64,000 nucleotides of DNA, taken from Balneola sp. GTDB taxonomy: Bacteria; Bacteroidota; Rhodothermia; Balneolales; Balneolaceae. The position numbers and the translations under genes are program-made. The first letter of the stretch is position 1. Each line of letters starts with the position of its first letter. Below the pieces are notes generated by a model, which had not been told where the DNA came from, searched no databases, and saw only the letters and a list, made by a program, of their open reading frames with translations. Where the stretch lies: contig NZMW01000004.1 in assembly GCA_002694685.1 (NCBI GenBank), positions 554,632 through 618,631 on the forward strand, written 5' to 3'. Below, piece after piece: positions 3,557 to 12,640 of this stretch.

Positions 3557-6433
3557 ATGAAAGCAGCAATTACCTTATTACTCACTTTTCTATGTTTGGC
3601 TCAAAGTGTTGATGCACAGCGCTATCCATTTAGGACCTTTTCTATTGAACAAGGATTAAGTGAGTCGGTAGTCAACGATTTAGCTCAGGATGATGAGGGT
3701 TACATATGGTTAGCTACCGGTTACGGACTTAATAGATTTGATGGGATCAGGTTTCAAAACTTCTTTGAAGAGCAAGGTTTGAATAGCAGCCGCATTCGTT
3801 CTTTACATAAGGATACCAAAGGCAAGATCTGGATTGGATCAGAAGCAGGAGTTAACTATTGGCAAGCTGACAGTATTGCCACTATTCCCGCGCTTTCTTC
3901 TTTGTTAAATATGACGGTGATCAGCATCCATGAAGATCGATTGGGGAACATGTGGTTTGGTACAGATGGCAATGGTGTCTGGCAATACGCAGAAGGGCAA
4001 TTGGTTACCCAGTATTCCACATCAAATGGCCTTATTGATAACCGAGTGCGTGCTATAGCTGAAAGGCAAAATGGAGAAATTTGGTTTGCCACTCGTGAAG
4101 GAATTACGGTTCTAAGAGATGGAAATTTCATTAATTATGATGAAGAAAACGGCCTTCCAAACCAAAGAATACGGGATATCCAGGTTGATGCTGAAAATAC
4201 GGTCTGGATTGGAAGCAGAGCGGGACTCATAAAATACACTGATGGTGAGTTTACTTTACTAGATGATGACGATGGTCTGGTAAACAATCTTGTTCAAACA
4301 ATCACTATCACAGAAGACAACAATATTTGGATTGGAACGGAAGAGGGTGCGAGTTTTTTTGATGGTTCAACATTTCAGAATTATGGAGTAGCCTCGGGTC
4401 TTTCTACAGAAATTATTTATTCTTCTATCCAAGATTTGGAAGGTAATATTTGGCTGGGGTCATATGGTGGTGGGGTGAATTTATTCATTGGGAGCTACTT
4501 TGCAAACTACAGCACAGAGCAAGGTTTGCCAAACAATCTGGTTACATCTTTTGCAGAGGATGCGAATGGAGATTTCTGGATTGCAACATATGGAGGGGGG
4601 ATTTCCTCACTAAAAAACGGTGAATTTAATGATCACGGGATGAATGCCAATCTCCCAGACAACCTAATGTATACCCTGTTTACTGATTCTAAAGAGCGCA
4701 TGTGGATCGGAATGGGTGAAGGCTTAGCTTATATCCAAAATGAACAGGTTAGAGTTTTTTCAGAAAGGGAATTCCCATATACCAAAGTCAGAAGTATAAT
4801 GGAGGCTTCGGACGGGACATTTTGGATAAGCACTTATGATGATGGAATTATTCGGTATGACGGAACAGAATTCGATCAGATCACAACCGAAAATGGCTTA
4901 GCTAATAACCGGGTGTTGGACTCGGTAGAAGGAAGAGATGGCTCAATCTGGATAGCTACTTATGGAGGAATTACCCGATATCGCCAAGGTGAATTCCAGA
5001 GTTTTGCCATTCAGGAAGGCCTTCCCAATAATGCAGTAATGAACTTACTAGAAGATGATGACGGCATAGTCTGGGCCTCAACTTTTGGAGGAATAGCTTG
5101 GTTTGATGGGTTAAGGTTTCAGAGCATAACCATAGATGATGGACTACCTGACAGGGTTTGTTACTTCATTTACCAGAATAAGAATGGGTTGTACTGGATC
5201 GGTACTACAGATGGAGTAGTTCGTTTTGATAAGGAAGAATATTTCAGTGCCGAATTGGAAGATAGAAATCAGGCATTTCAGGTATTAAATAAAGAACAGG
5301 GATTAATTTCAGATGAACTCAACCTTGGTGCAGTGTACGAAGACGAGGAGGGTCGTTTATGGTTTGGTACTGTTGAGGGATTAAGCCGCTTTTCTCCCAG
5401 CGAATATAAAGGCAATCAGGTACCTCCAAAAGTACATTTAGTCGGGGTGAATGTGTCTGGAAGGGAGTTACAACCTAATGAGCGGTTTATACTTTCTTAC
5501 AAAGAGAACAATATTGAATTTCAGTATGCTGGAATCAACTTTACGGCACCGAATCAAATTTTATATGAATATCGGTTGAATGGAATTGATCAGGGCTGGC
5601 AACAGACTAGCTCCCGATCTGTTAAATATCCTTCATTACCGCCGGGTGATTATACGTTTCAGGTGCATGCCAGAAATATTAATGGTGCTTGGAGCCCTGA
5701 TATTGAAAAAGTGAAATTTACGATTACAGCTCCATTCTGGATGCAATGGTGGTTCTGGATTCTGATGTTTGCGATCGTAGTAGGTATCATCTTCCTTTTC
5801 TATAATTATTACAGGGCTCGTAAAATGATTGATATAGAAAGAATGCGTGTACGCATTGCCAGTGATTTGCATGACGATGTAGGAGCAAGTTTAACTGAAA
5901 TTGCCCTGCAATCTGACTTTCTTCAGGCAGGAGATGCTGATTCTGAGTTCAAGAAATCGCTTGAACAAATTGGTAAACAATGCCGAAAAATTGTATCCAG
6001 CCTTGATGATATTGTCTGGTCGATTGATGCCCGAAATGATACCCTGGGAGACCTGACGGATCGAATGCAGGACTATATCCTCCACACGCTGGAGTCGAAA
6101 GACATGCAGGTCCGGTATAACTTCGACAATCTAAACATGGACAATCAGCTTCCTGTTTCAGTTAAGGAAAATGTATATTTGATCTTTAAAGAAGCGGTAA
6201 ACAACATTGCGAAGTACTCTGATGGTGACCGGGTAGAAATCAGTATGAAAAATCAGAATGGTTATTTCGAATTTTTAATTACTGATAACGGTACTACCGG
6301 AAGAGGAACTAAGAAAACCGGACACGGATTACGTAACATGGATATGCGAGCGAAAAGAATTGGAGCAGACATTACTATTGATACAGAAAACGGGTTTGCA
6401 ATAAAGGTTGAGGGGAAATTAAAAACTAACTAA
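3557..6433 (+). CDS. Two-component-propeller sensor histidine kinase (NarL-type)
   Basis: This is a 958-residue membrane sensor kinase. Residues 1-20 are a signal peptide ending VDAQ. Residues of about 25-620 form repeated propeller units (WIATYGG, IWIGSR, GGIxRY types), i.e. two-component-regulator propeller repeats in the periplasm. A Y_Y_Y-like Ig domain follows at about 635-720, with VKYPSLPPGDYTFQVHARN as its signature. One membrane helix lies at about 728-750. The HisKA_3 dimerisation helix carries SDLHDDVGASLTEIALQSD, with His772 as the expected phosphoacceptor. An HATPase domain completes the protein, with the N-box EAVNNIAKYS and G-box GHGLRNM. Such sensors usually detect oligosaccharides or other periplasmic ligands, but here the ligand is unknown. 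The kinase is followed 11 bases later by its response regulator and then by the duplicated envelope cassette, a plausible target. Confidence 0.9.
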   Translation: MKAAITLLLTFLCLAQSVDAQRYPFRTFSIEQGLSESVVNDLAQDDEGYIWLATGYGLNRFDGIRFQNFFEEQGLNSSRIRSLHKDTKGKIWIGSEAGVNYWQADSIATIPALSSLLNMTVISIHEDRLGNMWFGTDGNGVWQYAEGQLVTQYSTSNGLIDNRVRAIAERQNGEIWFATREGITVLRDGNFINYDEENGLPNQRIRDIQVDAENTVWIGSRAGLIKYTDGEFTLLDDDDGLVNNLVQTITITEDNNIWIGTEEGASFFDGSTFQNYGVASGLSTEIIYSSIQDLEGNIWLGSYGGGVNLFIGSYFANYSTEQGLPNNLVTSFAEDANGDFWIATYGGGISSLKNGEFNDHGMNANLPDNLMYTLFTDSKERMWIGMGEGLAYIQNEQVRVFSEREFPYTKVRSIMEASDGTFWISTYDDGIIRYDGTEFDQITTENGLANNRVLDSVEGRDGSIWIATYGGITRYRQGEFQSFAIQEGLPNNAVMNLLEDDDGIVWASTFGGIAWFDGLRFQSITIDDGLPDRVCYFIYQNKNGLYWIGTTDGVVRFDKEEYFSAELEDRNQAFQVLNKEQGLISDELNLGAVYEDEEGRLWFGTVEGLSRFSPSEYKGNQVPPKVHLVGVNVSGRELQPNERFILSYKENNIEFQYAGINFTAPNQILYEYRLNGIDQGWQQTSSRSVKYPSLPPGDYTFQVHARNINGAWSPDIEKVKFTITAPFWMQWWFWILMFAIVVGIIFLFYNYYRARKMIDIERMRVRIASDLHDDVGASLTEIALQSDFLQAGDADSEFKKSLEQIGKQCRKIVSSLDDIVWSIDARNDTLGDLTDRMQDYILHTLESKDMQVRYNFDNLNMDNQLPVSVKENVYLIFKEAVNNIAKYSDGDRVEISMKNQNGYFEFLITDNGTTGRGTKKTGHGLRNMDMRAKRIGADITIDTENGFAIKVEGKLKTN

Positions 6434-6444
6434 GGACTGTAATT

Positions 6445-7077
6445 ATGGCTGTCATAGGAATTGTTGAAGACAACAAAAAAATACGGGATTTAATACAACG
6501 TTATCTGGACATGCAGAAAGAAATGGATTGTCCGGTTGCGGTTGACTCCGTTGAGGAAATGCTGGATCACCTTGAGGAGCACCAAAAGCCTGATGTGATT
6601 CTTATGGACATTCAACTCCCTGGAATGTCTGGCATTAAGGGAATGGAGATTATAAAGTCGAAATATCCTGAAGTGGAAATCATTATGCTTACCGTTTATC
6701 ATGATTCACACAAGATTTTTGATTCGCTCAAAGCAGGCGCTTCCGGTTATTTATTGAAACATACTTCACTCCCTGAAATTAAGGAGTCGATAGAAAACCT
6801 CATGAAAGGCGGAGCACCAATGTCACCACAAATTGCCCGCAAGGTGATTTCTCATTTCAATGAAGAAGCTCCTAAGAAAAATGAGGACAGCATGCTAACC
6901 AATCGCGAGCAAGATATTGTAAATGGATTGGTTGATGGACTCAGCTATAAACTAATTGCGGACCGTTTTGATATTTCCATAGATACGGTTAGAGCACATA
7001 TTCGAAACATTTATAAGAAGCTTCATGTTAATTCTAAGGCAGAAGTAATTGCGAAGTCACTCCGTGGAGAGATTTAA
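6445..7077 (+). CDS. NarL/FixJ-family response regulator
   Basis: This 210-residue DNA-binding regulator pairs with the preceding kinase. The receiver domain covers residues 1-120, with acidic pocket Glu8/Asp9, phosphoacceptor Asp55 in LMDIQLPG and Lys105 in GYLLKHT. The LuxR-type helix-turn-helix lies near residues 148-205 and includes LTNREQDIVNGL and SIDTVRAHIRNIYKKL. The NarL-type output matches the HisKA_3 class of the kinase, which supports a cognate pair. Its regulon cannot be read from sequence. The envelope cassette begins 72 bases downstream on the same strand with no terminator between, so co-transcription or direct control is possible. Confidence 0.92.
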   Translation: MAVIGIVEDNKKIRDLIQRYLDMQKEMDCPVAVDSVEEMLDHLEEHQKPDVILMDIQLPGMSGIKGMEIIKSKYPEVEIIMLTVYHDSHKIFDSLKAGASGYLLKHTSLPEIKESIENLMKGGAPMSPQIARKVISHFNEEAPKKNEDSMLTNREQDIVNGLVDGLSYKLIADRFDISIDTVRAHIRNIYKKLHVNSKAEVIAKSLRGEI

Positions 7078-7149: not shown

Positions 7150-7986
7150 ATGAAGTCATTCAACATTGATATCTTATTAATTACAGTAGTATCAGTATTC
7201 ATATCTGGATGCTATACTCAGTTAAAGACATCAGCAAAGTATGAGCAGCAGTACGAGAATGAATATGTAGTTTTAAAAAAGGCGGGCATTTTCTACAAAG
7301 ACTATAACAAGGAGATGTGGTATAAAGAACGCTTTTTAAATAAAGTAAACTGGGAAGGGATAGATTCTACAGAAAGCTATTCTGCTAATTCTAAGACATT
7401 AAACAGTACTACTCGTAACCCTGAATACGTTTCGGCTTTCCCGGGATGGTATTCAAATCCCCATCGTTATCATCGGCACTATATTTGGGGGGAAGGTTTT
7501 GGAATGGCGTTCGGCCCTCTATATTGGGGTTATAGGTTAGATGCCGGGAGAGCTTATGCAAACAGCCATTCAGGACATTGGTACTATAATCCTGCAGGAT
7601 TTTGGAGTTATTATTATTACCCGTATTCAAGTAATTTTTATGGGCCGTATTACTATGACAGCTACTGGGGTACAACCGGTGGTTGGGGCATAAACACTAC
7701 AGCTGTAGCGGTGTATAATGATCATACAAGAGCTAAAAACTACGCTGAAAACTCTAAAAAATACCGTTTAGGTCCCAGAAACAGTGGTTTGATCTATGAT
7801 CAAAGCTCAAGAACACGATCTACTAGTTCTTCTGTAAGTAGAGCAAGAACTGTCACGAGGAGTAATTCAAGCGGCACAAGGGTGAGAAGCACGGGAAGAT
7901 CATCTGGAAGCACAACTCGTTCAACAGGCCGTTCACGATCATCAGGTGATGGTAACTCAAGCTCAAGGTCGAGAGGCGGAAACTAG
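7150..7986 (+). CDS. Lipoprotein with aromatic-rich core and Arg/Ser-rich tail (copy 1)
   Basis: I do not recognise a named family. The 278-residue product starts with a lipoprotein signal (lipobox ISGC, Cys21, then YTQ) and so is expected in the envelope. Residues 46-70 contain an IFYKDYNKEMWYK block. Residues 100-180 are extremely rich in Tyr, Trp, Gly and His. Residues 188-214 hold a motif shared with the second copy (VYND..RAK.Y......YR.GPR.SGL). Residues 219-278 are an Arg/Ser/Gly low-complexity tail ending in SRSRGGN. The tail is strongly basic and probably disordered. The gene is followed 47 bases later by a barrel-like outer-membrane protein, and the pair is repeated immediately downstream. 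The role is unknown; surface binding or a structural matrix role is inference. Confidence 0.75.
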   Translation: MKSFNIDILLITVVSVFISGCYTQLKTSAKYEQQYENEYVVLKKAGIFYKDYNKEMWYKERFLNKVNWEGIDSTESYSANSKTLNSTTRNPEYVSAFPGWYSNPHRYHRHYIWGEGFGMAFGPLYWGYRLDAGRAYANSHSGHWYYNPAGFWSYYYYPYSSNFYGPYYYDSYWGTTGGWGINTTAVAVYNDHTRAKNYAENSKKYRLGPRNSGLIYDQSSRTRSTSSSVSRARTVTRSNSSGTRVRSTGRSSGSTTRSTGRSRSSGDGNSSSRSRGGN

Positions 7987-8033
7987 CTTACCTGCTTTTT
8001 TTCTAAAGTCATCAAAATCGCTACACACCTTCT

Positions 8034-9545
8034 ATGAAGAGAAATGTCTATATCCTGATTTTGTGCCTGGTTCCGATTTTTGAAGGTTATGCACAACAGG
8101 AGCTGGAACCTGAAAGATTTTCCAATTTTTCCCTTCAACTTACCTCACCCAACGTTAATGCTGACCCTGGTTCCATGATGCCATCGGTAGCCAAGGCGTA
8201 TGGTTTTGGCAGCTATATAGATAATCCTGCTTCCATGGCAACGATTGAGAACAGTGAATTTATGTTTAGCTTTTTCAGGGATACTGATTCAGCAAATAGC
8301 AGTTATCTCGGCACCAAAAATAAGACTGATTGGCAAAATGATAAACTTGGAAGCATAGGGGTAGCCTATAGTGTACCGGCAATCACAGGGAGCTTAGTGA
8401 TTGGAGTCGGATATAACCGGGTAATTTCTAATGCAAACACATATCGTATTTCGGGGCGAAATAATAACAGCACCATCACCGATTCATTTCTTGATGCAGA
8501 CAATAAATACTTTGACTTAGCCTTTGATACCTATGCAATAGACTGGGGAGATGTAGAGCAAACTTATCTTGAATCTATTTTCCGTATTGGCTTTGAACCG
8601 GGCTCTTTTCCTGGAATTAATCAGGAAGCAGAAATACGATCTCAGACATATGCAGGAGAATACACCGCTTTTTTAGCTACTGAATTTAGAAAAGATTTGT
8701 TTGTTGGGTTCTCAATAAGCTTTCTTCAGGGGGAGTCTCAACACCGGGAAAATTTTTTGGAAACAGATAACCAGAACGATTATGATGGCGACTTTATAGA
8801 AGGAAGTGACATTGACAATATTCTGGTCAATGACAGAATCGATACAAAGATATTAGCATGGAAATTCAGAACCGGACTCGTTTATAAGATAAGGCCTGGA
8901 CTAAATGCAGGAATCAGTTATCAATTCCCATTTACAATTCATTTGTCAGAAAGAAAAAGGTATTTCATCCAAACATCTCTTGATGATAATTCAGAACCTT
9001 TTTTCTCTGAAATACAAAGCGATGGAAATATCAGATACCGTATTAACAAACCGGGTATTTTAAAAGCCGGATTGGCCTATGAAGTAAATCAATTTGCAGT
9101 ATCGCTTTCAGCTGAGTACACAAATTATCGGAACATGAAGTACAACTTATTAGCTGATAGAGATGACAGAGCCCCTTTCCTTGACATTTGGAGAGATAAA
9201 CAATCAGTTACCAACAACCTTTTGAAAGAAAATTATGATGATGTACTTGATATACATGCTGGCACAGAGGTACACATCACCAATAAAACAACCTTGAGGG
9301 CAGGGTATGCTTTTCTTCCGGAGAGGAATGTTCGGGAACCTGGAAATGTCAATCAGCTTTCTGCCGGTATCTCTCACATGATTTTGAGTAATTTGAGATT
9401 TGATATTAATGGACAATATTACCAAAAACAGAAAAAGAGAACTCTTTATGAATACACAGATTTTGAAAATGAAGCTCAAACTTCTGCCTTTAATTCAAGA
9501 GTTAAAAACGTTAGGGTAATTGCAGCTCTTAAACTTCTTTTTTGA
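8034..9545 (+). CDS. Outer-membrane beta-barrel-like protein (copy 1)
   Basis: The product is a 503-residue exported protein with a signal peptide ending near residue 21 (EGYAQ). Alternating hydrophobic/polar strands, many aromatic residues and a terminal phenylalanine (ALKLLF) are typical of outer-membrane barrels. The arrangement, with an early FGSYIDNPASMA segment, recalls OmpP1/FadL-type transport proteins, but I see no decisive family motif. It is clearly paralogous to the gene at 11047-12582: both carry GRNN.STITD, YAIDWGDV and TYLESIFRIGF in the same order. It follows the lipoprotein by 47 bases, which suggests a two-component outer-membrane unit. The substrate is unknown. Confidence 0.7.
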   Translation: MKRNVYILILCLVPIFEGYAQQELEPERFSNFSLQLTSPNVNADPGSMMPSVAKAYGFGSYIDNPASMATIENSEFMFSFFRDTDSANSSYLGTKNKTDWQNDKLGSIGVAYSVPAITGSLVIGVGYNRVISNANTYRISGRNNNSTITDSFLDADNKYFDLAFDTYAIDWGDVEQTYLESIFRIGFEPGSFPGINQEAEIRSQTYAGEYTAFLATEFRKDLFVGFSISFLQGESQHRENFLETDNQNDYDGDFIEGSDIDNILVNDRIDTKILAWKFRTGLVYKIRPGLNAGISYQFPFTIHLSERKRYFIQTSLDDNSEPFFSEIQSDGNIRYRINKPGILKAGLAYEVNQFAVSLSAEYTNYRNMKYNLLADRDDRAPFLDIWRDKQSVTNNLLKENYDDVLDIHAGTEVHITNKTTLRAGYAFLPERNVREPGNVNQLSAGISHMILSNLRFDINGQYYQKQKKRTLYEYTDFENEAQTSAFNSRVKNVRVIAALKLLF

Positions 9546-9650
9546 TTATCTTATGTCAAGCTCATTAACATTAACATGTGATATAATGTGAGAGAGTATA
9601 GAGTTATTATGGATGTGTTGACAAAATCCAAGCCTCAAAAAGGTGTTGCT

Positions 9651-11006
9651 ATGAAGTATCAAAATTCAGTTTCCACGTTAATACTGCTTTTTATCCCTTT
9701 CCTATTCACCGGATGCTATACGCAATTCCAAACCTATGATCGATATCCTTTAGAGAACGATCGCTATGCAGGATATTACGCTTGGGATAATTTTGATCAG
9801 ACTGAGGGTGAAGATAACTCAGCTTATTACAATCAAGGCGATGAGGAATACCTTGATGAGCAAATGGCTTTAGAGGAAGACGATATCTATTACAAGGACT
9901 ATGAAACTGAGACATGGTACAAAAAGAACTATGCGGATAAACTCTACTGGTATGGATATGAAGATGGTTTTGGAGATGGATACAGTAAAGGATACTCTGC
10001 TGCAATAGACGATCACTATTTTTATGGCTACAAGCCTTGGGCTTATAATAGCTGGTACCGTTCTCACTACACACCTTTCTACCAATATAATCGTGGTTAC
10101 CATAATTCTTTTTGGATAGGATTTGGAAGCTATGGACATGGTTACTACAGCTACCCATACTATGGTTGGGGCGGGTATTATGATTACGGTTATTGGGGAT
10201 GGCACCATCCATATTCAACATCAATATTTGTGTATAATGACTATCACAGAGCTAAGAAATATCGACGAAGCGCTGATTTATATAGGAAAGGACCAAGAGG
10301 TTCCGGTTTATATGGCAGTGCAGGAGATTACCGAACTCGATCTGGTAGTGGCATAGATTCACGGTCAAGAGGATCAGGTGTCACAAGATCGAGGGGGATT
10401 AATACCGGAACCCGTGTGCGAACAACAGACCGCTCATCCGGACGAGGAAGTTCCGTGGGTAAAAGTTCTGGAACTAGATCAAGAGGATCGTCTGTAGGTA
10501 AAAGTCGCTCAAGTTCAGGTAAAAGCCGAAGCAGAGGGGGTGGATCTTCTGTAGGGCGAAGCAATGGAAGCAGCAAAAGCAGCGGAAGTGGCAAAACCGG
10601 GAAGTCCAGATCCAGATCAGGAAATAATTACTCGGCACTTAGTACTACTTCTGTCCGAGATATAAACATTCCTGACGTTTCAACCCGAACATATACTATC
10701 CCGGCTCGACGTGGAAACAGTACTTTTAGCGGTTACAGTTCTACTTTTAGTTTAAGTGATTTTGTTAAAGGTTCTAGTCGCAGAGCAAGCTTAAATTCAA
10801 GCAAAAGCTTTTTTGATAGAGTAGGAGCATCAACTAAAAGGTCTTCTACTATAGGCAGAACGAATACTTCATCCAAAACTACAAGAAGCATTACACGAAG
10901 TACTTCTTCCTCAAGCCGATCTTCATCAGTAAGCAGAAGCAGAGGATCATCATCAAGTAAATCATCAGGCAGTTCAGGTAGTAAAAGAAGCCGCGGCGGA
11001 AATTAA
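9651..11006 (+). CDS. Lipoprotein with aromatic-rich core and long Arg/Ser-rich tail (copy 2)
   Basis: This is a paralogue of the lipoprotein at 7150. The ATG at 9651 is preferred over 9588 because it places a proper lipoprotein signal at the N-terminus (FTGC, Cys22, then YTQ); the product is then 451 residues. Residues 40-80 are acidic. Residues 78-105 repeat the IYYKDYETETWYKKNY block. Residues 120-190 are dominated by Tyr, Gly, Trp and His. Residues 194-220 hold the shared VYND..RAK...YRKGPRGSGL motif. Residues 226-325 and 400-451 are Arg/Ser/Gly/Lys repeats, with VGKS/VGRS units between 268 and 303, and the end is KRSRGGN. A less repetitive island at 326-395 interrupts the tail. It is longer than copy 1 mainly through tail expansion. 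The function is unknown. Confidence 0.72.
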   Translation: MKYQNSVSTLILLFIPFLFTGCYTQFQTYDRYPLENDRYAGYYAWDNFDQTEGEDNSAYYNQGDEEYLDEQMALEEDDIYYKDYETETWYKKNYADKLYWYGYEDGFGDGYSKGYSAAIDDHYFYGYKPWAYNSWYRSHYTPFYQYNRGYHNSFWIGFGSYGHGYYSYPYYGWGGYYDYGYWGWHHPYSTSIFVYNDYHRAKKYRRSADLYRKGPRGSGLYGSAGDYRTRSGSGIDSRSRGSGVTRSRGINTGTRVRTTDRSSGRGSSVGKSSGTRSRGSSVGKSRSSSGKSRSRGGGSSVGRSNGSSKSSGSGKTGKSRSRSGNNYSALSTTSVRDINIPDVSTRTYTIPARRGNSTFSGYSSTFSLSDFVKGSSRRASLNSSKSFFDRVGASTKRSSTIGRTNTSSKTTRSITRSTSSSSRSSSVSRSRGSSSSKSSGSSGSKRSRGGN

Positions 11007-11046
11007 GCTGCAGGCTTAAACCCAATCAAAAAATTATTATATCACT

Positions 11047-12582
11047 ATGAAGAGGATTCTTTTTTTTCTCTTGATGCCCATACTGTTTCAACCAATTGAC
11101 GCTTTTGCACAGGACGGCAGCAATGAGGTGTTGTACTCAAATTTGGCATTACAGTTCAGCTCACAGAACTTTAATGGGGATGCAGGTACCGGGTATTTCC
11201 CATCTGTAGCAGCCCCGAATGGATATGGCAGTTTCGCCGATAATCCGGCAAGTGTGGCACTTATAAAAGACGGCTATTTCAACTTCAGCCTATTTAATAA
11301 TCAGGTAGAATATGAAAACAGCTATTTGGGCAATACGATTGTTTCGGATGATAATTCAACCAAATTGGGCAACCTTGGGTTTGTCTATAAAATACCAACT
11401 GAGCAAGGGAGTTTTGTTTTAGGCGGAGGCTATAATCAGCTTAAAAATGAAGAAAGAATATATAGAGTAGGGGGGCGGAATAACCAAAGCACTATCACTG
11501 ATCAGTTTAAAGAACCAACCAGTGACTATTACGATATAGCCTTTAATGCCTATGCAATTGACTGGGGTGATGTGGATTCTACTTACCTGGAATCAATTTT
11601 TAGAATTGGATTTCAAAATTTCCCAGGTATTTCTCAAAATGCAGAAGTAACCAGTTCCACTAATATTGGGGAGTATTCCTTTTTCTTTGGGACTGAATTC
11701 CAGGAGAATCTGTTTCTTGGGATTTCAGCTGGGTTAACATCAGGTAGCTACAAATACCGAAGAAATTTTCTGGAAGAGGATGATGAGAATGATTACAACG
11801 GCACCTTTATTCCTTCCGATGTCAACGATGTGGGCACTGATATCTCAAGTATTTTAACACACGATGAAATTGATGCGAGTATCCTTGGATTTTCCTTGCG
11901 TGGCGGTATTATTTATGAAGTTTCACCAAAGTTTAATGTTGGGGTTAGCTACTTAATACCATCCACCTTGGTGATTCGGGAAAGCTATTATTCCTCAATT
12001 CTAACAGAACTTGATGACGATTCAACGCCTTTTGAGTCTGATTTTGCCAGTGATCAGGACTATGAATATCGAATTAAAAAGCCAGGGCAACTTAGTGCCG
12101 GTTTTGCTTTGAAAGATGTTGCGGGTTTTAGTCTGTCTATTTCCGGAGAGTATATCAATCACTCCAATCTCAGTCTTGATCTAGTGACAGGAAACAATCT
12201 TGGTTTTGATGCCGAAGTGGATTTAATAGATCAGCAAAGCGATTTGGATGCTTTCATGGGAGAAAACTATAATCAGGTAGTAAACCTAAAGAGTAGTCTT
12301 GGCTACCAGATTAATAACCAGTTCAACATGAAAGCAGGTTATGCTTTTCTGCCAGCCAAGAGTAAAGTTTTTGAATCAGACAGGAATATTATTTCTGGAG
12401 GCTTCAGTGCAAATATCTCAAAGAATATAGTTCTGGACATAAACGGGCAATATTCATTTTGGGAAGACCGTTCGGAACTGTATAACTATTATGACGACTC
12501 CGAAGATGTTGTTCGATCAGAAGTAGTTGATCAACAAGTAAGCACATTTAAAATATTAGCGGGTATTAAGTTTCTTTTTTAA
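11047..12582 (+). CDS. Outer-membrane beta-barrel-like protein (copy 2)
   Basis: This 511-residue exported protein has a signal peptide to about residue 22 (IDAFAQ) and a terminal aromatic residue (GIKFLF), consistent with insertion by the BAM machinery. It is a clear paralogue of 8034-9545, sharing GRNN.STITD, YAIDWGDV, TYLESIFRIGF, and a late AGYAFLP segment. It sits 40 bases after the second lipoprotein, so the two-gene order is preserved in both cassette copies. Divergence is considerable outside the shared blocks, so the duplication is not recent. A bidirectional terminator follows. FadL-like transport or anchoring of the neighbouring lipoprotein is a guess. Confidence 0.7.
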   Translation: MKRILFFLLMPILFQPIDAFAQDGSNEVLYSNLALQFSSQNFNGDAGTGYFPSVAAPNGYGSFADNPASVALIKDGYFNFSLFNNQVEYENSYLGNTIVSDDNSTKLGNLGFVYKIPTEQGSFVLGGGYNQLKNEERIYRVGGRNNQSTITDQFKEPTSDYYDIAFNAYAIDWGDVDSTYLESIFRIGFQNFPGISQNAEVTSSTNIGEYSFFFGTEFQENLFLGISAGLTSGSYKYRRNFLEEDDENDYNGTFIPSDVNDVGTDISSILTHDEIDASILGFSLRGGIIYEVSPKFNVGVSYLIPSTLVIRESYYSSILTELDDDSTPFESDFASDQDYEYRIKKPGQLSAGFALKDVAGFSLSISGEYINHSNLSLDLVTGNNLGFDAEVDLIDQQSDLDAFMGENYNQVVNLKSSLGYQINNQFNMKAGYAFLPAKSKVFESDRNIISGGFSANISKNIVLDINGQYSFWEDRSELYNYYDDSEDVVRSEVVDQQVSTFKILAGIKFLF

Positions 12583-12606: not shown

Positions 12607-12640
12607 AAAAAGAGGCCTCGTGATTGAGGCTCTTTTTTTG
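12607..12640. terminator. Bidirectional terminator between the barrel gene and corA
   Basis: An A-tract, AGAGGCCTC, a short loop GTGATT, GAGGCTCT and a run of seven Ts form a hairpin with one bulged base. It lies between convergent genes and has A and T tracts on both sides, so it can serve both. Confidence 0.75.

Follow-up and report, generated by a model that had tools for sequence, protein, structure and literature searches.

FadL-type barrels have long been taken as fatty-acid channels, and BamG and PorV show that in the phylum Bacteroidota the fold also serves protein partners. BamG and the lipoprotein BamH are described in two reports as components of the Bacteroidota BAM complex (PMC12611786, PMC12578637). 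According to the latter, the N-terminal tail of BamG is highly conserved and its loops at BamH are unconserved, B. thetaiotaomicron has a BamG2-BamH2 operon, and the surface-export signal of lipoproteins consists of at least two acidic residues among the six that follow the lipidated cysteine (PMC12578637). In F. johnsoniae, depletion of TamL raised the lipoprotein Fjoh_4940 2.6-fold and the adjoining FadL homolog Fjoh_4941 5.6-fold, and the authors suggested a functional link between the two (PMC12045153). The locus presented here combines a FadL-family barrel with a lipoprotein of another kind.

A tandem lipoprotein and barrel unit

In the window, that is, the whole stretch of 64,000 nucleotides of Balneola sp. 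DNA that was analyzed, four plus-strand open reading frames follow one another between positions 7150 and 12582 and form two lipoprotein-barrel units (Table 1). An earlier note, made from the sequence alone, had described a tandem two-gene unit on one strand, and our results confirm this description, the two barrels being 41% identical over 516 columns (E 7e-130). The lipoproteins are 27% identical (E 4e-12, in part from low-complexity tails), and the regions that precede the tails can be aligned as well, scoring 62 or 46 bits according to which one serves as query. All the shared lipoprotein and barrel motifs that the note had quoted were found in the translations. A terminator scan of the sequence gave 4 sites against a mean of 4.5 in shuffled sequence, that is, no excess, and a promoter scan was no richer than shuffles. 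Of the 47 named Balneolales loci in which upstream DNA extends beyond 6 kb, 37 have upstream homologs of the histidine kinase, and judging by their position the kinase and the LuxR-type regulator may be regulators of the unit.

Table 1. Features of the locus, in window coordinates
Feature	Position	Strand	Description
Hybrid-type sensor histidine kinase	3557..6433	+	Reg_prop propeller, Y_Y_Y, HisKA_3 and HATPase_c domains
LuxR-type response regulator	6445..7077	+	Domain matches
Lipoprotein 1	7150..7986	+	278 aa; GCYTQ lipobox, Tyr/Trp-rich middle, Arg/Ser tail with RSRGGN end
Barrel 1, FadL-family outer-membrane	8034..9545	+	503 aa; Pfam PF03349 45.1 bits, cut-off 29.7
Lipoprotein 2	9651..11006	+	451 aa from ATG 9651 (likely start); ORF opens at GTG 9588
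Barrel 2, FadL-family outer-membrane	11047..12582	+	511 aa; PF03349 29.4 bits versus cut-off 29.7
Terminator-like hairpin	12614..12631	+	3' of barrel 2; scan-wide yield no better than shuffles

By the profile match of barrel 1 and the predicted fold of barrel 2, the window barrels are FadL-family proteins; barrel 2 itself falls just short of the PF03349 cut-off. The model of barrel 2 (pLDDT 90.5, pTM 0.84) displays the FadL/TodX/BamG fold with BamG as its closest Foldseek match, and it aligns with FadL (3pgs_A) at a VIA Z of 33.5 (rmsd 4.2, 375 aligned). PorV structures were matched at Z 24, and among the families that VIA-align lists, FadL and BamG come ahead of PorV, CymA, OmpG and further ones. 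Profile matches of the barrel in the PDB were TbuX, TodX, CymD and FadL, and the NPA hatch motif is retained, with N66 and A68 invariant and P67 kept in at least 90%. Since residue 3 of FadL falls on model residue 39, whereas residue 33 of B. thetaiotaomicron BamG falls on residue 32 (and residue 39 of P. gingivalis BamG on residue 24), the N-terminal tail appears longer than that of FadL, as in BamG; here the mature protein is estimated to begin near residue 22. Conservation of the tail (residues 22-38) is average, with a JS of 0.49 versus 0.48 overall. The loop at 146-194, extracellular if loop sides are read from strand order, reaches 0.56 versus 0.27-0.44 in the other five.

Lipoprotein 2 is predicted to be disordered (mean pLDDT 45.2), and a structure search with its model was set aside because the model was too poor. 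Its tail has a net charge of +40 over 238 residues. Searches of Pfam, NCBIfam and the PDB with a lipoprotein profile returned nothing convincing, and none of 46 lipoproteins matched DUF4270 or BamH. For the counts of tails and export signals, 67 lipoproteins of the order were selected by a CYTQ-like motif; that 65 of them start with CYTQ is thus partly by construction. At least two Arg or Lys residues occur among the last eight in 61 of the 67. The acidic surface-export signal was found in none of these 67 and in none of 16 lipoproteins from other families, whereas within the same order it is present in 10 of 12 BamH-like lipoproteins. These counts apply a rule that was derived from other Bacteroidota. 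The earlier suggestion of a surface matrix or adhesion system is disfavored by the predicted disorder and the missing signal of the lipoprotein and by the assignment of the barrel to the FadL family.

Spread of the pair and duplication of the unit

The earlier note had seen a genuine lipoprotein-barrel pair, whose distribution is much broader than the note knew. In the order, 74 of 77 genomes have the barrel, and relatives occur in 270 of 394 genomes of a phylum sample. When an automatic filter was applied to three sets of loci, a lipoprotein with an Arg/Ser/Gly-rich tail lay directly upstream of the barrel in 66/69, 39/51 and 20/26 loci, as against 0/189, 2/222 and 0/73 control genes (2/484 overall). 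In the named set, which shares loci with the order set and does not count as an independent one, 58/63 loci and 0/237 controls passed; 11, 1, 0 and 3 hits with a short flank or a fragment had been left out before counting. All three failures in the order set (L068, L094, L122) have a CYTQ lipoprotein visible by eye. The failures in the other two sets (12/51 and 6/26) were inspected in part only: a CYT-type lipoprotein was seen by eye in L207, L208, L214, L220, L231 and others, no upstream lipoprotein partner was seen on inspection in L198, L235 and L271, and the upstream protein of L272 and L280 is without an evident lipobox cysteine.

Phylum-wide, the order of lipoprotein and barrel is retained while other neighbors vary; in the clusters viewed, which are annotated in part, we saw no fatty-acid gene in the conserved neighborhood. 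Mean column identity is 19% for the lipoproteins (alignment A2) versus 41% for the barrels, and the lipoproteins of distant loci are alike in layout and putative homologs. The neighbor test favors the functional pair with preserved order for which the earlier note had argued. The co-occurrence of both families that it had raised was checked across order and phylum, and the lipoprotein stands directly upstream in most loci. Separately, lipoproteins with a CxxCH motif were counted by script in 5 of 147 loci, and two more, in L236 and L239, were missed by the script and seen by eye.

Single units are the rule and tandem duplication is the exception. Among the 77 genomes of the order, two full-length barrels were found only in the Balneola sp. 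genome itself and in G007, and in G022 one barrel is full-length and the other is split in two. Another four double units were identified among 61 named loci. The whole unit has been duplicated in tandem at least twice, separately, and the copy-1 lipoproteins of the window and of G007 are each other's nearest.

Possible function of the pair

We read the pairing as a complex because the lipoprotein lies directly upstream in most loci and the two genes were duplicated as a unit. Our tentative explanation is that the two proteins would form an outer-membrane complex of their own, built on the BamG-BamH plan, probably facing the periplasm and serving envelope homeostasis. The FadL-type barrel, with its long N-terminal tail, would hold the lipidated CYTQ N-terminus of the partner lipoprotein, which is predicted to be mostly unstructured, unlike BamH, and would probably face the periplasm. 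The long Arg/Ser tail could then attach to a polyanion; peptidoglycan is the likeliest candidate, with lipopolysaccharide as another if the tail is exposed. Judged by its composition alone, the tail may act as a periplasmic tether. Rather than take up fatty acids, such a complex would stabilize or monitor the outer membrane, and its control in Balneolales may lie with the adjacent upstream two-component genes. The match of the barrel model to BamG and FadL structures, its longer N-terminal tail, the gene order shared with the BamH-like/BamG pair of the genome, the more conserved loop, and the disorder, charge and missing export signal of the lipoprotein favor this explanation as well, and so would the response of Fjoh_4940 and Fjoh_4941 to TamL depletion if they belong to this family. 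The average conservation of the barrel tail, which in BamG is reported as high, and the loci in which no partner or no lipobox cysteine was seen speak against it. A more specific version, possible but rather doubtful, is an unnamed complex spread through a large part of the phylum in which a non-importing FadL-type barrel holds an inner-leaflet lipoprotein, with the long disordered cationic tail as a flexible periplasmic tether or stress sensor.

The same barrel might instead belong to a surface module resembling BamG-BamH, in which the lipoprotein reaches the surface despite the missing signal and its tail helps to build a layer outside the cell above the barrel, the whole perhaps being an accessory to BAM. 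The Foldseek match to BamG, the conserved loop 146-194 if it is extracellular, the gene order shared with the BamH-BamG pair of the Balneola sp. genome, and the BamG2-BamH2 operon mentioned above all point in this direction. We nevertheless consider it unlikely, given that none of the 67 and 16 lipoproteins has the acidic pair that 10 of 12 BamH-like lipoproteins carry, that none of the 46 lipoproteins searched matches BamH or DUF4270, and that the genome already has a separate BamG and BamH-like pair. Uptake of hydrophobic compounds through the barrel, with the lipoprotein gating it or handing on cargo, would agree with the PF03349 score of barrel 1, the PDB profile matches, the retained hatch motif and the structural alignment with FadL. 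This too seems improbable, since BamG and PorV have the same fold without transport as a known role, the conserved neighbors, annotated in part, showed no fatty-acid genes, and FadL channels are not known to have a disordered cationic partner.

We give little credence to a PorV-like role as an accessory to type IX secretion. SprA occurs in 57/57 genomes of the order, the phylum sample contains 263 genomes with both SprA and the barrel, 85 with neither, 39 with SprA only and 7 with the barrel only, and there are weak PorV-family matches in some relatives besides the PorV structures matched by the model. However, this co-occurrence is confounded by phylogeny, three genomes without a SprA match (G078, G404, G318) keep the pair, and the ten other PorV-family proteins of the genome exclude the window barrels. 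It is just as hard to believe that two envelope genes merely share an operon for expression and form no complex. The fast divergence of the lipoproteins relative to the barrels would be expected on that account, but the order is kept phylum-wide while other neighbors change, and the unit was duplicated as a whole.

If the reading of a non-importing barrel with a tether is true, it would show the FadL fold in yet another role, besides those of BamG and PorV. The pair offers two defined genes to target in tractable strains, and it is a candidate for how these bacteria maintain outer membrane order.

Comparison with described systems

In the open-license literature we found no named system made up of such a lipoprotein and a FadL-type barrel, in line with what the earlier note had claimed. 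RcsF with outer-membrane proteins in Escherichia coli offers an analogy only, in that a lipoprotein with a positively charged segment works with a barrel in envelope sensing; it differs in having its N-terminus on the surface and threading through the barrel, and no relation is claimed (PMC4942254). Fjoh_4940 and Fjoh_4941 resemble the pair by description, as adjoining genes for a lipoprotein and a FadL homolog with a joint rise on TamL depletion (PMC12045153).

Compared with the FadL/TodX channels (PF03349), the window barrels share the fold and the hatch motif, but they have a longer N-terminal tail and an obligate-looking lipoprotein neighbor. PorV has a FadL-like fold as well, and its profile weakly matches some relatives. 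The window barrels themselves are not PorV, falling outside the ten PorV-family matches of their own genome (NF033709, cut-off 90 bits), and the retention of the pair in three genomes without a SprA match weakens the case for an obligate part of the type IX secretion system.

BamG was likewise ruled out as the identity of the barrel, since another site in the genome holds a far stronger BamG match, next to a BamH-like lipoprotein. A BamG protein would also be expected to bind the rear of BamA and to be essential. That best match to the BamG profile (NCBIfam NF053685) scores 231 bits, itself below the 250-bit cut-off; the profile gives no match to the window barrels at E up to 0.1, and weak matches in 9 of 47 relatives (best 7e-10). 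In contrast to BamH, a DUF4270-like surface lipoprotein, the partner lipoprotein is predicted to be disordered, lacks the export signal and any BamH or DUF4270 match, and has a different N-terminal signature, one that was defined after the sequences were seen. The pair nonetheless resembles BamG-BamH in its FadL-fold barrel with a longer N-terminal tail, in a gene order of lipoprotein then barrel like that of the BamH-like/BamG pair of the same genome, and in the duplicate copies known for both.

Layout and conservation of the lipoprotein–barrel unit

The window holds two consecutive units, each consisting of a lipoprotein gene followed by a FadL-family barrel gene, and the four genes are separated by spacers of 47, about 105 and 40 bases. 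The barrels share 41% identity and the lipoproteins 27%. The first lipoprotein gene opens 72 bases past a response-regulator gene, itself preceded by a histidine-kinase gene. Among the 47 named Balneolales loci whose flank is long enough, 37 carry homologues of these two genes upstream in the same orientation, and by their position the kinase and regulator may control the unit. Barrel 2 is followed by a hairpin with a T run, a type of site whose scan total was not above that of shuffled sequence.

Coordinates of the units and of related features
Feature	Location	Score	Remark
Reg_prop histidine kinase and LuxR-type regulator	3557-7077		directly upstream of units
Two lipoprotein–barrel units	7150-12582 (+)		four genes
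Lipoprotein 1	7150-7986		copy 1
Barrel 1	8034-9545		copy 1
Lipoprotein 2	9651-11006		copy 2
Barrel 2	11047-12582		copy 2
Own-genome BamG	G000:C10:190859-192064	231 bits (NCBIfam BamG)	
Own-genome BamH-like lipoprotein and BamG genes	L186:6851-9368		locus on contig 10
Example of the ~257-residue YjbH-like protein	L220:6869-7654 (-)		range of loci L206-L239

The barrel is present in 74 of 77 Balneolales genomes, and relatives were found in 270 of 394 phylum-sample genomes (E up to 1e-10), the weak ones of which may include other FadL proteins. As a single-sequence query, lipoprotein 1 had matches in only 17/77 genomes because the lipoprotein diverges fast, and pairing was therefore sought upstream of the barrels with a filter that asked for a lipobox and for a tail enriched in residues such as Arg/Lys, Ser and Gly. 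A filter-positive lipoprotein lies directly upstream of the barrel in 66/69 loci of the order, in 39/51 from the same class or phylum and in 20/26 of a further set taken for Bacteroidia, against 0/189, 2/222 and 0/73 positives among control genes of those loci. The pair, which the earlier note took to be functional from its preserved gene order, is real and conserved. Close inspection of seven genomes revealed a barrel in six, each with an upstream partner of this layout as judged by eye; the seventh, G165, gave no barrel match. No name for the pair was found in the literature searched.

Of the 67 listed order lipoproteins, 65 have CYTQ after the lipobox, though the list was itself selected by a motif related to CYTQ; 61/67 carry at least two Arg/Lys among the last eight residues. 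The further-set lipoproteins have another start (e.g. CSTSKLA), and the likeness established to the CYTQ type is one of layout. In seven loci (L223, L225, L226, L229, L233, L236, L239) the upstream lipoprotein, of about 200-300 residues, has a single heme-c-like CxxCH motif close to the N-terminus. In 26/53 loci outside the first set, the lipoprotein is preceded on its own strand by a protein of ~257 residues whose YjbH match (PF06082, E 2e-4) is sub-threshold.

In a tree of 42 barrels, one genus contains two supported clades, one with window copy 1 and one with copy 2. Of its genomes, G007 has both types, G002 and G009 the copy-1 type alone, and the other members in the tree the copy-2 type alone. 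The extra units of four loci (L312, L313, L321, L322) cluster together, also with support, in a different part of that tree. In the part before the tail, the window's copy-1 lipoprotein and that of G007 are each other's closest match, as duplication of the whole unit would predict; the G002/G009 lipoprotein resembles copy 1 more than the lipoproteins of other members do, yet it still scores higher with copy 2. In two records whose contigs share a length of 29,685 (L205, L325) the barrel alone is duplicated, and the motif finds no second lipoprotein between the copies.

Relation of the barrel to FadL, BamG and PorV

The window barrels are neither BamG nor PorV, as neither model matches either barrel. 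Barrel 1 exceeds the Pfam FadL/Toluene_X cut-off and barrel 2 misses it by 0.3 bits, while a 47-barrel profile matches TbuX (5e-10), TodX, CymD and FadL among PDB sequences, with BamG absent from these matches. By fold, the confident AlphaFold2 model of barrel 2 (pLDDT 90.5, pTM 0.84) assigns it to the FadL family but does not decide between FadL and BamG. The top Foldseek match is B. thetaiotaomicron BamG (E 3e-17), with TodX, FadL and F. johnsoniae BamG next; VIA-align gives Z 33.5 for FadL (rmsd 4.2, 375 aligned), 31.9 for P. gingivalis BamG (4.1, 360), 31.1 for B. thetaiotaomicron BamG (4.1, 362), 30.9 for F. johnsoniae BamG (3.8, 351) and 24.3 for PorV (5.7, 296).

The two families are related, since some window-family barrels match BamG: weakly in 9/47 order barrels (and in several rows of the BamG search of the order genomes), and at 1e-16 and 2e-14 in two from outside the order. 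A DALRYS-type signature at the mature N-terminus, composed post hoc with the sequences already in view, occurs in 31/76, 42/52 and 20/26 barrels of three sets and in 0/17 BamG-type proteins; the window barrels do not match it and carry a variant. The NCBIfam BamG model has matches in 57/57 order genomes, over the curated cut-off in 7/57. Directly upstream of the own-genome BamG lies a lipoprotein whose DUF4270 match exceeds the cut-off and whose BamH match is weak (E 5e-4), the same gene order as in the window unit. The own genome also has ten matches to the PorV/PorQ family, of which nine exceed the curated cut-off.

SprA of the type IX secretion system is present in 57/57 order genomes, and in the phylum sample 263 genomes have SprA and barrel, 7 barrel only, 39 SprA only and 85 neither. 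This correlation is confounded by phylogeny. The pair is kept in three genomes without an SprA match, and the secretion system is therefore not an obligate partner.

A working model and its comparison with known systems

The window lipoproteins are rich in aromatic residues before the tail (16-22% Tyr, 9 Trp), and their tails carry a positive charge, +12 in 71 residues and +40 in 238; the copy 2 model is disordered (pLDDT 45.2). The earlier note suggested a surface matrix, which our results do not support. No lipoprotein among the 67 of the order or the 16 of the further set has two acidic residues within six positions after the Cys, whereas 10 of the 12 BamH-like lipoproteins encoded upstream of BamG in the same order have two and the remaining 2 have one. 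By a rule set up in other Bacteroidota, this deficit speaks against surface exposure of the lipoprotein. The cationic tail would act on a polyanion, for which, in a periplasmic lipoprotein, peptidoglycan is our guess.

According to passages of PMC12578637 and PMC12611786, BamH contacts BamG through its lipidated N-terminus, which is packed onto the N-tail and wall of the barrel. On this working model the lipoprotein would touch the barrel; the start is the best conserved part of the window-family lipoprotein, the barrel N-tail is longer than that of FadL, and loop 146-194 stands out by its conservation (JS column score 0.56, against 0.27-0.44 in other loops on that side). However, N-tail conservation is average (0.49, against 0.48 overall), a pattern opposite to that in the literature on BamG, which counts against the barrel as a simple copy of BamG. 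Putative members only of the family are Fjoh_4940 and Fjoh_4941 of F. johnsoniae; passages of PMC12045153 describe that upon TamL depletion these neighbouring proteins rise in the outer membrane, and that Fjoh_4941 falls in vesicles.
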